Assembly: GCA_011503125.2 (NCBI GenBank) | Contig: WWBZ02000062.1 | Coordinates: 1,178,001 to 1,242,000 of the forward strand | Source: Botryosphaeria dothidea | Taxonomy: Eukaryota; Ascomycota; Dothideomycetes; Botryosphaeriales; Botryosphaeriaceae | Direction: 5' to 3' | DNA: 64,000 nucleotides | Shown here: piece after piece, positions 12,616 to 56,647 of the stretch | Position numbering within the stretch: the first letter of the stretch is position 1 | Layout: the number at the start of each line of letters is the position of its first letter | The notes under the pieces: model-generated | The model's database searches: none | Seen by the model: the letters and a program-made list of their open reading frames with translations, nothing else | What the model was told of the DNA's origin: nothing | Made by a program: the position numbers and the translations under genes

Positions 12616-12626
12616 TGGATCCGCCG

Positions 12627-12637
12627 GGAATCGAACC
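12627..12637 (-). promoter_or_regulatory. tRNA-Ala B box
   Basis: Perfect match to the consensus GGTTCGANTCC on the minus strand. With the A box TGGTTTAGTGG at 12775-12765 it forms the internal Pol III promoter; the two introns stretch the A-B distance to well over 100 nt. Confidence 0.8.
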
Positions 12638-12711
12638 CGGGACCACTCCCAAATTAACTCGAATTAACCTGGATTTTAGGCCAGGGCATGCCGTGCTAAG
12701 GGAGTATTATA

Positions 12712-12764
12712 CTACGGTTCTGTTAGTTTGGATTGCTGGAAAAGTGTTGCCAGACTGAACTTAC
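12712..12764 (-). other. Spliceosomal-type intron inside tRNA-Ala D-loop
   Basis: This 53-nt insertion starts GTAAGT, has ACTAACAG with the branch A about 10 nt from its end, and ends CCGTAG. Its size and signals match the mRNA introns of the same window. Excision exactly at GT and AG joins AGTGG to TATAAT, giving a standard fungal D-loop. No bulge-helix-bulge arrangement with the anticodon stem, which the tRNA splicing endonuclease uses, is evident at this site. Confidence 0.75.
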
Positions 12765-12782
12765 CCACTAAACCACAGACCC

Positions 12783-29710: not shown

Positions 29711-32700
29711 ATGGGGATAGACGACACCACCCTTGATGTCGAGGAGACGACTGAACCTCCTATACGTGGCCCCGTAGAGGAACGTATATCGAAAGGCACT
29801 GCTTCTCCGGCTCCAACCCCCGAGAAAGACGACGTCGGCCACTCCGCCGGCACCACTCTGACCTCTGCGCCATCTACCGCCTCATCCGACGACGACGGCA
29901 AAGAAGGCAGCGGCTACAAGAACGCTCACACCGTACCTGCGGCCGCAGTTGCCCGGGTACTGGGCGTCGATCCTCAGTAAGCCCACCTCCTTCCTGCAGT
30001 CGTACAGAGGTGGCTAACAGCTCAGAAATGGACTCACTCGTGCCGAAGCCGCATCTCGCCTTGAGCGAGATGGGCTTAATAAGGTTGAGGGAGCTAAAGG
30101 GCTTTCCTTGTGGAAAATTCTGTTGAGACAGGTCTCTAACAGTCTTACCCTAGTATGTAGACCAACGATTTCGCCACTAACACGAAGTGGCGAATCTCGT
30201 GCATTGATGACCTCGTCGCGAGACGACATTCAGATGCTCATGTGCGTTCCTTCATCACTAACCCAAATAGGTCCTTGTAATTGTCATGGCTCTGAGCTTT
30301 GGTATCGATGACTACATCGAAGGCGGAGTTATCACTGCTGTCATTCTCCTCAACATCGTTGTCGGGTGAGTTAGATCACTTTTCCCTGCTGTTGGTCTTT
30401 TGCTGACTCTGGTCCAACAGCTTCGTCCAAGACTACCATGCGGAGAAAGCCATCATGTCTCTTTACGCGCTATCCGCACCCGTCTCAAAGGTGATGCGAG
30501 ACGGTTTAATTGAGCATGTCAAGGCCGAGACCGTGGTAGTTGGTGATATCGTTCACCTCAACGTCGGAGACATTGTCCCGGCAGATTTGAGGCTGATCGA
30601 CGGAATCAACGTATCAACCGATGAAGCTCTCCTGACTGGAGAATCGCTCCCTGTGACCAAGACTCCCCATAAGATTTTCGACGTCTCCGACATTCCAGTT
30701 GGAGATCGCACCAACATGGCGTATTCCGCTACTACAATGTCTCAGGGACGTGCTACTGGTGTCGTTGTGGCAACCGGCATCAACACTGAAGTCGGCCAAA
30801 TTGCTGAGATGCTACGTAGCCGTGGAAGAGTGACTGAAGGATCTAACGTCGCCATCCGCACTTGGAATCGCTTCGAGAACGGGTTTAAGGTCGTATTGGG
30901 TCTGGAAGGAACTCCCCTGCAGATTAAGCTAAGCAAATTCGCCCTCCTTCTATTTGCCCTCGCCATCCTCCTGGCGGTGATTGTTTTCTCGGCGGCGAAA
31001 TGGGATGTCCGAGGCGAAGTCCTCATCTACGGCATCTGCGTCGGAGTTGCGGTCATCCCGGAATCTCTGATTGCAGTTCTTACCATCACCATCGCGGTCG
31101 GCACCAAAGCCATGGCCAAGGGAAATGTCATTGTTAGAAAGCTTTCTGCTCTTGAAGCTGTCGGAGGTGTCACAAACATCTGCTCTGACAAGACTGGCAC
31201 CCTCACGCAGGGCAAGATGATTGCCCGCAAGGCCTGGATTCCTTCCATGGGAACGGTGACGGTCCATGATACTACCAACCCATTCGACCCAACAAATGGT
31301 TTTGTCAAGATGAACGATTGTGATGTCGACATCGAGGATTACGACAAAACTACTCTTATGGACACTTTCCTGAAGGCGATTGCCCTTTGCAACCTTTCTT
31401 CTGTCTACAAATCCTCTGCGGATGACGCCTCGGTCAGCACGGCGTCGGAAGCGGGCTGGATAACCGTAGGCGAACCCACGGAAATTGCCCTCCAGGTCTT
31501 TGCCATGCGATTCAACTACGGAAAGCCGACGCTGATGGAGGACGACACGCTGGAACTCCTGGCCGAATTTCCCTTTGACTCCAACTTCAAGCGGATGACG
31601 GTGATTTACAAGGACAAGGCCGACTTCTCGTCCCATGCATACATGAAGGGTGCCGTAGAGGTTATGCTTCCTGCTCTCTTGAGCTCTGACTCTGGGAAGA
31701 ATCAAATCAGCACTATGGCGGAGGAAATGGCCGGTCAGGGTCTGCGTGTTCTCTGCGTCGGCCATAAGCTGGTGCCGGACGACCCCAAGCAACTCGCCGA
31801 CCGTGCCGTCGCTGAATCGAACATGGAATTCGTCGGTCTCATAGGACTGTACGACCCGCCTCGCCTGGAATCAGCCGATGCGGTGCGCAGGTGCCAGATG
31901 GCTGGAATTACCGTGCACATGTTGACTGGTGACCACATCAAGACTGCCACGGCCATTGCCCACGAAGTTGGCATCCTGAGCGGGACGGCGCCAAACGCAA
32001 AGTCCGGATCTGCCATCATGCCGGCCTCGGAATTTGATAAGCTCTCTGACGAGGAAATTGATGCTGTCGAAACCTTGCCCCTGGTTCTGGCCCGATGCAG
32101 CCCCAAGACCAAGGTCCGAATGGTTCAAGCAATGCACCGCCGCAAGGCGTTCTGTGTCATGACTGGCGATGGTGTCAATGATGCCCCAGCCTTGAGGATC
32201 TCCTCAGTCGGTGTTGCCATGGGCTTGAATGGCAGTGACGTCGCCAAGGAGGCGGCTGACATGGTCTTGACTGACGACAACTTTGCCTCAATCGTGAAAG
32301 CTGTGGAGGAGGGACGCAGGCTGTTCGACAATATCCAGAAGGTAAGAGACCCTCAAGACCGCACTCACTGGAGGAGACGAAAGTTAACATTTATTCTCAG
32401 TTCCTACTCCACCTCCTCATCTCCAACATCTCCCAAGTGATTCTCCTCTTGATTGGGCTGGCCTTCAAAGACGGCGATAACAATTCCGTCTTCCCGCTCT
32501 CCCCACTCGAGATTCTCTGGGTCAACCTCATTACCTCGTCCTTCCTTGCCCTCGGTCTCGGCGTTGAGGAAGCGCAGCCAGACATTATGCTGCGCCCTCC
32601 GCACGACCTCGCTGTTGGCGTCTTCACGCCTGAACTTATCATCGACAAGTTCATCTACGGCTTTTTCATGGGCTCGCTCTGCATCGCTGCCTTCACTTCA

Positions 32701-47979: not shown

Positions 47980-48410
47980 AATTATGAGAATCGAGATGAT
48001 GGTGTGCAGTTGTAAAAAGACCTAATCAACATCGCCATAGGGAGCGGAAACATTTATCTGGGTGTAAATATATCGCATTTTCACTGATGGAGCCGTCCGC
48101 ACGAATGCTTACACTCCCTATGAGGTTGTAATTTTCGGAGGCATTGCCGCTAACCACCGGCTCCGATCCCCCCTGTGCATAAAATCAAGGATGGCTTCGT
48201 CTCGTACTAGAGTATCTATAAAGCAATTCACTACGGTAATAGTATTCTCAAACCATGGCAGCTTTGGATGTCGTCGGGTGTCAAAAAATGGGTTGTTATC
48301 GAGTTTGGGCGGAGTCATAATGGTACCAGGGTCCATCCGCGCTATAAAATCTTTTCCGAACACTCAAAGAACAACGTCCAGGAGGAGCATACAAGGGCAA
48401 AAAGATGGTA
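47980..48410. other. Intergenic downstream of tRNA-His
   Basis: About 430 bp with no supported gene, apart from the probable Pol III terminator noted separately. Confidence 0.5.
48399..48403 (-). terminator. Probable Pol III T-run terminator of tRNA-His
   Basis: Five consecutive T on the minus strand, 8 nt beyond the tRNA 3' end: the standard spacing for Pol III termination. Confidence 0.75.
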
Positions 48411-48421
48411 TGGCACTGCTG

Positions 48422-48432
48422 GGAATCGAACC
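48422..48432 (-). promoter_or_regulatory. tRNA-His B box
   Basis: Perfect GGTTCGATTCC on the minus strand. The A box is split by the 5' insertion, since U8 is on one side and the rest on the other; only an imperfect match survives downstream (AGGCTGTAAAGG). Confidence 0.8.
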
Positions 48433-48496
48433 CAGACTGCGTCGGACTCGTTCTCGTAGTGTTATCCACCACAACGACGTCTGCTACCTTTACAGC

Positions 48497-48553
48497 CTTA
48501 ATTTATTGTTAGTTTATGGTCGGAGAGTGTGGTAGCAATCGTGGTAGACTTAC
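48497..48553 (-). other. Spliceosomal-type intron inside tRNA-His 5' half
   Basis: This 57-nt insertion starts GTAAGT, has AAACTAACA with the branch A about 12 nt from its end, and ends TTAAG. Because the flank is G on both sides the boundary can shift by one base, but the GT-AG reading works. It shares signals but no obvious sequence with the insertion in tRNA-Ala. Confidence 0.75.
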
Positions 48554-48561
48554 ACAGCACC

Positions 48562-54893: not shown

Positions 54894-56647
54894 ATGTCCG
54901 GCACAATCACCAACGGCACCTCAAGAATAGCCCACCGGGAAGAAAAAGAACTTCCGGGAGGATGGGTGGTCCTCAAGTTTGGTGGTACAAGCGTCGGCAA
55001 ATTCGCCGTCGATATAGCGGAGATTGTGAAGTGAGCGCATGCTTCCCCCGCATTCGTTTGGCACCCTGCTGAACAGTTACCAGGTCGGGTCTCAGCGAGA
55101 ACCGCGTCGCAATTGTCTGCTCAGCCCGGAGCAACAACACCAAGCTCGAGGGCACCACCAACAGGTACCCCGCCTTGTGTCACCTTCTAGCCAAATCGAG
55201 ACTGACCGGCGGCTACTTTCGCTTTCTTCAGGCTTCTCCGCTCCGCTCGTGAAGCCGAAATCCCGGGCTCTAAGGGCTACGTCGACATCGTCGAGGCCAT
55301 CCGTACCGACCACATTCAGGCCGCTACCGACACGATCAAGAACCCAGACATTATCGCCCAGTTCACTGAGGATGTCAACGCTGAATGCCACCACCTCATC
55401 AAGATCCTCGAATCCGCCCAACACTTGGAGGAAGTCAGTGTTCGCGTCGAGGACAAGATCATCAGCAAGGGTGAAAAGTTGAGCTGCCGGTACATGGCCG
55501 CGCTGCTGGAGGAATATGGCGTACCCGCTCAGTACGTCGATCTCTCCAACGTCACCAACTTCAGCCCGGGCCACAACAAGGTCCTGGATGAAAAGTTCTA
55601 TGCGGGCCTGGCGGCGTCCCTGGGCGAAGAGCTCAGGGCCTGCGGAGACAAAGTCCCCGTCGTGACGGGCTACTTCGGTAACGTTCCCGGGGGTCTGCTC
55701 AATGCGGTTGGCCGCGGTTACACTGACCTGTGTGCCGCCCTTTGTGCCGTTGGCACCCAAGCCGACGAACTCCAGATTTGGAAGGAGGTCGATGGCATCT
55801 TCACCGCGGATCCCCGCAAGGTGCCTACGGCCGCTCTGCTGCCCTCGGTCACGCCATCTGAGGCGGCTGAGTTGACTTTCTATGGCTCTGAGGTTATCCA
55901 CCCCTTTACCATGGAGCAAGTCATCCGCGCGCGCATTCCCATTCGCATTAAGAATGTCATGAACCCGCGCAATGCCGGCACTGTCATCTTCCCCGACTCG
56001 ATCGAGGAATTGAACTCCAAGAACCCGCTGCATGACCCAAAGCTTTTCCGCACGCGCTCGACCAGCAATGTCACTGCCGCCAAGGGTCCCAAACGCCCCA
56101 CCGCTGTCACCATCAAGCGTGGCATTGTGGTGCTGAACGTCCACAGCAACAAGCGTACTCGCGCGCCTGGCTTCTTGCGCAACATCTTTGCCATCTTGGA
56201 CAAGTGGAACATGTCCGTTGACCTGATCTCCTCGTCTGAGGTGCACGTCTCGCTGGTGCTGCACTCGGAGTCGTCCATGCTGACTTACGGCACGGATGAG
56301 GAGTATCACATCCAGGACGAGGAGCTTAAGGGCTGCGTCGTCGACCTGAGCGACATTGGCACTATCGACCTTGTCCCGAACATGGCCATCGTGAGCTTGG
56401 TTGGTAAGCAACTCAAGAACATGCTTGGCATTTCGGGCCGTTTCTTCTCTGTGCTGGGAGAGAACAACATCAACATTGAGATGATCTCGCAAGGTAAGTT
56501 CAGTGCCATAATCTCACAGTTCACGAATATGTTGACATGATTTCAATAGGTGCCAGCGAGATCAACATCTCTTGCGTCATTGAAGAGAGGGACGCCGACC
56601 GCGCCCTCAACGTTGTACATACAAACCTTTTCACATTTTTAGAATAG
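54894..56647 (+). CDS. HOM3: Aspartate kinase
   Basis: Exons 54894-55030, 55084-55164, 55232-56493 and 56550-56647 (introns 53, 67 and 56 nt) give 525 residues. The catalytic domain begins WVVLKFGGTSVGK and contains IVCSARSNNTKLEGTTN, GYFG, LNAVGRGYTDLCAAL, WKEVDGIFTADPR and FYGSEVIHPFTMEQ. Two C-terminal ACT-type regulatory segments follow (VLNVHSNKRTRAPGFLRNIF, then NMAIVSLVGKQLKN and GENNINIEMISQGASEINISCVI). The enzyme phosphorylates aspartate, the first step towards threonine and methionine, and fungal forms are feedback-inhibited by threonine. The last intron falls between ISQ and GASEINIS, inside the regulatory domain. Nothing is missing. Confidence 0.95.

Follow-up and report, generated by a model that had tools for sequence, protein, structure and literature searches.

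How can a tRNA gene be read when 57 nucleotides stand between its 5' acceptor strand and the rest of the molecule, and which machinery would take these nucleotides out? This question is raised by a tRNA-His locus in a 64,000-nucleotide stretch of the Botryosphaeria dothidea genome (contig WWBZ02000062.1, positions 1,178,001 to 1,242,000; hereafter the window, numbered from its first letter). An earlier reading, made from the sequence alone, had assigned two introns to this locus, a tRNA-His(GTG) gene. Our analysis makes it highly probable that this gene carries a canonical tRNA intron together with a U2-type spliceosomal intron of 57 nt, and that it is one member of a genome-wide set of such introns in Pol III tRNA genes.

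Structure of the tRNA-His(GTG) gene

Direct reading of the minus strand of the window from 48561 to 48411 gives a complete tRNA-His(GTG) made of three exons and two introns, with the following parts.

48554..48561 (-): exon 1, nucleotides 1-8, the 5' acceptor strand GGTGCTG and U8 (GGTGCTGT); read directly
48497..48553 (-): 57-nt GT-AG insert between U8 and G9, GTAAGT...AAACTAACAATAAATTAAG; deletion scan and shuffles
48469..48496 (-): exon 2, 28 nt, G9-G37, with the D arm, the 5' strand of the anticodon stem and GTG
48446..48468 (-): canonical 23-nt tRNA intron after nucleotide 37; called by ARAGORN without the 57 nt
48411..48445 (-): exon 3, 35 nt, with nucleotide 38, the 3' strand of the anticodon stem, the T arm, the 3' acceptor strand and A73
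48432-48422 (-): B box GGTTCGATTCC, in the T arm of exon 3
48399..48403 (-): T5 run, likely Pol III terminator, 7 nt past A73

Once the introns are removed, exon 1 pairs with 48418-48412 at 7/7 positions and the mature tRNA-His forms 21/21 stem pairs. A cloverleaf, the GTG anticodon, a B box and a terminator, which are the sequence features of a functional tRNA-His, are all present. The 57-nt insertion between U8 and G9 proposed by the sequence-only reading is borne out by the direct reading and by the deletion scan described below, while the gap to the downstream T run, given there as 8 nt, is in fact 7 nt. The same reading held that the insertion splits the A box. It does cut off T8, but positions 9-19 stay together as one block that opens exon 2 directly after the 3' splice site. 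The likeness it drew to the tRNA-Ala gene of the window holds for the kind of intron but not for its position, as the Ala intron lies after G19.

ARAGORN called no tRNA in the raw window. Rfam at gathering score listed for the window only a 5S rRNA gene (1070-1189, (-), a full-length match to the Rfam model) and the tRNA-Ala at 12616-12782, and not the tRNA-His. Since neither program found it, genes interrupted in this way can be missed.

Splice signals and deletion scan

The 57-nt insert begins with the donor GTAAGT, contains a branch-like CTAAC whose A lies 12 nt before the 3' end, and ends with AAG. The donor consensus of U2-type introns is GTRAGT-like, and GTAAGT is complementary to U1. 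The canonical site of eukaryotic tRNA introns is one nucleotide 3' of the anticodon (37/38). The 23-nt intron fits this site, whereas the 57-nt insert, at 8/9, differs from a canonical intron in position, length and signals.

For the deletion scan, a 300-nt stretch beginning 20 nt before the tRNA was used, segments of 40-75 nt starting within its first 170 nt were removed, and the remainder was rescored with ARAGORN. The GT-AG rule played no part in locating the optimum. For His, 77 of the 5,688 deletions yield any tRNA and two reach the top score; these two are the 57-nt GT...AG segment and its one-base shift, which leave the same sequence behind. ARAGORN calls this product tRNA-His(gtg) with a 23-nt intron and a score of 110.1. 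We also applied a joint splice test, which demands a start of GT[AGT][AG]G, a YTRAY whose A falls 5-30 nt ahead of the 3' end, and a terminal AG. The His insert passes, and its shuffled versions pass in 0 of 20,000 cases. Over 12 introns from the set described below, 12/12 real sequences pass, compared with 8 of 240,000 shuffles.

When the deletion scan was run over the same 12 introns, the GT-AG deletion came first in three (His, Ser and the T-loop intron of the Ala locus L107) and was not the top one for the other nine (ranks 2 to 388), the reason being that a deletion can reach into the canonical intron, whereupon ARAGORN favours a shorter pseudo-tRNA. For these nine introns the argument is therefore borne by paralogues and splice signals. 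In the two scan rows of L107, the second GT-AG intron had been taken out beforehand. ARAGORN misnames some spliced products (Leu of L081 and L145 as Gly, Ala of L107 as Met), and their anticodon arms were read by eye.

Other tRNA-His(GTG) genes

With the whole His locus as query, a DNA search returned the locus itself and a paralogue matching from exon 2 onward and nothing else, so that no further copy of the His intron came up. Two further tRNA-His(GTG) genes were found in all.

C58:1171829 (+) (search match C58:1171837-1171937): paralogue with the 23-nt canonical intron only, about 54 kb from the window copy
C58:2218732 (-): third tRNA-His(GTG), without the insert; canonical intron of 51 nt (ARAGORN) or 62 nt (our own numbering); one mismatched pair, 27-43

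The canonical intron of the paralogue at C58:1171829 is identical in position and length to that of the window copy, and the two tRNAs differ at 10/71 positions. Six of these ten differences form three compensatory pairs, namely 5-68 (across the insert), 12-23 and 28-42, with C5-G68 and G12-C23 among the letters of the window copy; one more changes G-C to G-U. Such compensatory pairs indicate that the window tRNA-His has been retained as a tRNA since the copies diverged. The earlier reading was to fall if an intact tRNA-His(GTG) existed elsewhere and this locus was not expressed; as to the first half, there are two such genes. The idea that the window holds the sole tRNA-His(GTG) was dropped with their discovery, and the window copy need not be functional or essential.

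GT-AG introns in other tRNA genes

tRNA loci were searched for with T-arm/B-box sequences, with a tRNA covariance model and with follow-ups for Ala and Leu. A dispersed repeat containing GGTTCGAATCCGGGTGGGGACTGTTGCTTTT, which resembles a T arm and terminator, occurs on many contigs (e.g. L012 at 1500) and swamps B-box searches. The resulting set comprises 83 nuclear loci, made up of 45 of the 61 rows of the covariance model and 38 more (including the exact duplicates L096 and L119); the other 16 rows lie on the mitochondrial-like contigs C14 and C26. The number 83 is to be read as at least 83, since the covariance model scored 63 of 1,497 candidates and, among the T-arm/B-box searches, one was covered for its first places, another for 32 of its 41 places and three more for a minority of theirs, and it includes two doubtful members, C58:2826308 (a partial gene) and L156 (a low-scoring Phe call). 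Fifteen of these 83 loci carry GT-AG introns at non-canonical sites, at seven positions. Intron positions, and some of the anticodons, were read by hand.

8/9: His, one locus
16/18: Ser(AGA), one locus
19/20: Ala(AGC), seven loci
24/25: Val(CAC), two identical loci
25/26: Leu(CAG), three loci
30/31: Glu(TTC), one locus
57/58 (T loop): Ala(AGC), second GT-AG intron in four of the seven Ala loci

There are 19 such introns in total (18 tabulated rows plus one identical Val copy), with 16 distinct sequences. All 16 are 52-60 nt long and have the form GTNNG...YTAAY...AG, with the branch-like A 10-13 nt from the 3' end; by rows, both the GTNNG start and the YTAAY followed by AG are found in 18/18. 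Most paralogous introns that share a position have diverged in sequence and kept their splice signals. In the Ser(AGA) gene, comparison with the intronless copy L047 reveals a compensatory pair, 5-68, that spans the intron. The double-intron reading of tRNA-His is supported by these 14 other loci as well as by the deletion scan, the shuffles of splice signals and the compensatory changes.

tRNA genes for Glu, Val, Ser and Ala occur in the same order and at matching distances in C3:1331083-1554756 and C12:3030555-3254242. Since the distances of the Val pair and of one Ala pair match, the C3 stretch may be a duplicate or a second haplotype of part of C12. With the C3/C12 pairs counted once, 13 intron-bearing genes are left.

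Four mRNA introns of the window served as a yardstick.

29977..30025 (+): P-type Na+ ATPase intron, 49 nt, GTAAGC...CTAAC...CAG; spliced alignment to relatives
30366..30420 (+): P-type Na+ ATPase intron, 55 nt, GTGAGT...CTGAC...CAG; spliced alignment to relatives
32342..32400 (+): P-type Na+ ATPase intron, 59 nt, GTAAGA...TTAAC...CAG; matches stop at 32341 and restart at 32398, ends set by eye
56494..56549 (+): last aspartokinase intron, 56 nt, GTAAGT...TTGAC...TAG; gap between matches, ends set by eye

The two boundaries set by eye were not top-ranked by the automated boundary ranking. With 52-60 nt, the tRNA introns match the mRNA introns (49, 55, 56 and 59 nt) in length as well as in signals and are, if anything, nearer to the consensus than these four. 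At least three further gaps in the ATPase and aspartokinase genes, for which no boundaries were set, look looser. The named proteins nearest to those of the genome come from Botryosphaeriaceae, which makes the fungus a Dothideomycete. Among named matches, the P-type ATPase is nearest to Macrophomina phaseolina (94%) and Neofusicoccum parvum (93%), the aspartokinase to Diplodia seriata (94%) and an RNase III to Macrophomina (56%); metagenome proteins are closer still to the ATPase and the aspartokinase (98% and 100%, respectively).

The tRNA-Ala(AGC) genes

An argument from need for function would rest on tRNA-Ala(AGC) and not on His, as all seven Ala(AGC) loci found are interrupted. The copy in the window has two introns.

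12616..12782 (-): tRNA-Ala(AGC), found by Rfam
12764-12712 (-): intron of 53 nt after G19, GTAAGT...CTAAC...TAG
12693-12652 (-): canonical intron of 42 nt after nucleotide 37

A GT-AG intron in the D loop is present in 7/7 tRNA-Ala(AGC) loci found, although a BLAST-type search missed three of the seven and a divergent intronless copy may remain. The seventh locus, C36:2123892, was read directly and is likewise interrupted; in the C3 locus the sequence read starts at the intron, and the 5' exon was seen in the C12 copy. A genome search for an uninterrupted junction from D loop to anticodon, allowing at most 3 mismatches, found none, and the six places returned are 3' splice junctions, in which AG is followed directly by TATAATACTCCCTTAGCA. 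The AGC tRNA-Ala decodes GCC and GCU, and with its inosine it is required for reading GCC. Because this tRNA is needed, its D-loop introns must be removed if there is no intact copy. One pair of the Ala D stem, 13-22, is mismatched in both copies that were compared.

Four of the seven genes, namely L107 (C36:2123892-2124108), L169, L170 and L171, contain three introns each: the D-loop GT-AG intron, the canonical intron after nucleotide 37 and a second GT-AG intron in the T loop. The latter splits the B box (57/58), and in the T stem a compensatory pair, 50-64, lies across it. In 4/4 cases the T-loop intron contains the B-box-like TGTTCGAAT, whereas GTTCRA is found in 0/14 of the other intron rows. 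Between the C36 and C78 genes, the T-loop introns are 79% identical (shuffles: mean 60%, maximum 72%), whereas identity between their D-loop introns is 61%, which is the level of shuffles. These observations would fit with the T-loop intron itself supplying the B box. The T-loop introns of C36, C3 and C12, at 98-100% identity, could instead owe their likeness to recent gene conversion. We lean towards the broader reading that the spliceosome would be an obligatory tRNA processor in this lineage, with every tRNA-Ala(AGC) being spliced, and that introns would have entered the promoter boxes of Pol III genes, in some cases bringing a replacement box.

The trailers of all seven Ala(AGC) genes (window 12609-12595 (-), L084, L132, L107 and L169-L171) share a short hairpin or T-arm-like element starting with CTGGTT, placed ahead of the T run, which lies about 35-50 nt downstream. 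In the four loci with a T-loop intron the element reads GGTTCAATTCC; it may be an external B box. The C36 gene is followed, about 190 bp further on, by a second tRNA-Ala T arm with a 3' acceptor strand and no visible 5' half (C36:2124299-2124338; L107 near 1483-1522); this fragment was left out of the locus count.

Promoter and terminator elements

In the His gene the distance from A box to B box equals that of the paralogue, and 65 bp separate the A box from the mature 5' end where 8 bp are usual, which makes the placement of the start site a real question. Binding of TFIIIC is probably still possible, given that neither A-box positions 9-19 nor the spacing to the B box is disturbed. By analogy with yeast Pol III biology, ordinary TFIIIC-directed initiation would then begin within the intron.

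Upstream TATA-like motifs were sought as TATAW or ATATA. Such a motif is present in 36 of 61 different upstream regions that belong to tRNA genes free of GT-AG introns, where 200 shuffles gave 19.4 on average and 27 at most, and it was found for one of the nine GT-AG-intron genes examined. By this pattern there is no TATA-like motif within 100 bp upstream of the window His gene, so that such a motif was rejected as the solution for its promoter; a looser TATGTAAATA is present about 70 bp upstream. At the other end, a run of at least four T within about 60 nt downstream was found for 14/14 intron genes looked at (Val being taken once), against 2,839 of 20,000 random 60-nt stretches of the window (14%). 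A T4 run lies within the intron itself in 1/12 introns, a number too small to build on.

Proposed processing and alternative explanations

Taken together, the intron signals and the tRNA folds suggest that the mRNA-splicing machine may help to make tRNAs in Botryosphaeria dothidea. For tRNA-His, Pol III would make the precursor and stop at T5. U1 would pair with GUAAGU and U2 with CUAAC of the 57-nt intron, and the spliceosome would take this intron out as a lariat in the nucleus, joining the 5' acceptor strand to the D arm. The cloverleaf could then fold. To complete the tRNA, RNase P and RNase Z would trim its ends, the tRNA splicing endonuclease would excise the 23-nt intron and tRNA ligase would seal the exons. 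Several points speak against the spliceosomal reading: a first exon of 8 nt on an uncapped transcript would be an unusual substrate, two other tRNA-His(GTG) genes lack the insert, the window copy has a displaced A box and no TATA-like motif by pattern, the GT-AG deletion does not lead the scan for nine of the 12 introns, and the Ala D stem has its mismatch.

The transcript need not come from Pol III. The interrupted tRNAs could be parts of longer Pol II transcripts that are spliced like mRNA and have their tRNA ends cut out later, and the scarcity of TATA-like motifs (1/9 intron genes compared with 36/61 others) would agree with this, as would the fact that the usual substrates of the spliceosome are Pol II transcripts. 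However, T runs downstream of 14/14 genes, where 14% of random stretches have one, A and B boxes that are mostly retained, and a B-box-like sequence found in 4/4 T-loop introns and absent from the other 14 rows all point to Pol III, and we consider a Pol II origin unlikely. The His locus might also be a decaying duplicate that received an insertion, or an unexpressed copy whose insert only looks spliceable. Its promoter distance is disturbed, it has no TATA-like motif by pattern, and uninterrupted tRNA-His(GTG) genes are present; nevertheless it has kept 21/21 stem pairs and T5, six of its ten differences from the paralogue are compensatory and one is a wobble, and its splice signals are not reproduced by shuffles. 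Either case is decidedly unlikely in our view, and the same compensatory pairs and splice signals make a random insertion or a pseudogene unlikely.

A last alternative keeps the tRNA splicing endonuclease for both introns, the 57-nt insert being an ectopic tRNA intron as in archaea, the red alga Cyanidioschyzon and nucleomorphs, and its GT-AG ends being incidental. In those lineages, according to the available parts of PMC4090602 and PMC9602550, a tRNA gene can have multiple introns, located in the D, anticodon and T arms. Our search for the strict bulge-helix-bulge (BHB) motif at the junctions of 12 introns found none above random positions; in His the best case has 3/4 central and 1/2 outer pairs, which lies within the random range. 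The strict form of a BHB intron was rejected on these scores. That 16/16 distinct introns have GTNNG, and YTAAY with a constant spacing to AG, would also be unexpected for introns recognised by structure, and an ectopic endonuclease intron appears very improbable.

Relation to known systems

Removal of the 57-nt intron by the spliceosome would have a partial parallel in Schizosaccharomyces pombe, where the U6 snRNA gene carries an mRNA-type intron (PMC8917221, as excerpted, citing Tani and Ohshima). There a spliceosomal intron lies in a Pol III transcript, as is proposed for the tRNAs described here, although U6 is one snRNA whereas here 15 tRNA loci with seven positions are concerned, most with an endonuclease intron too. 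The available parts of PMC4090602, PMC3978253 and PMC9602550 describe tRNA introns in the D, anticodon and T arms, up to three per gene, in Cyanidioschyzon merolae and in nucleomorphs. These are credited to BHB and tRNA endonuclease or are very short (3-24 nt, Guillardia), and those parts mention no spliceosome signals; the fungal introns, in contrast, are without a strict BHB. In Thermoproteales, tRNA introns occur at positions such as 25/26, 30/31 and 56/57, and some genes have three of them (PMC4090602, in the sections available). Their positions are non-canonical as in our set, but in the same sections they have a BHB motif and are processed by the archaeal endonuclease.

Students learn the splicing of tRNAs and that of mRNAs as two distinct systems. 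In the parts available, a 2026 review classes tRNA splicing as independent of the spliceosome (PMC13149111), and the description of tRNAscan-SE 2.0 has non-canonical introns sought with archaeal BHB models (PMC8450103). Our literature search, which covered few subscription papers, brought up no precedent for spliceosomal introns in tRNA genes of the nucleus, although one may exist elsewhere. If the spliceosomal reading is true, this fungus relies on the spliceosome for its tRNA supply, and one and the same pre-tRNA is handled by two splicing systems. The uncapped transcript, whose first exon measures 8 nt, would then be a natural test case for splice-site recognition.

A separate feature was seen in seven tRNA-Glu(CTC) genes (L085, L091, L092, L097, L105, L126 and L127), which have a leader beginning with CTGAGAGA followed by a small hairpin. 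In most of the seven, CTGAGAG has its complement, CTCTCAG, in the anticodon loop and the start of the intron.
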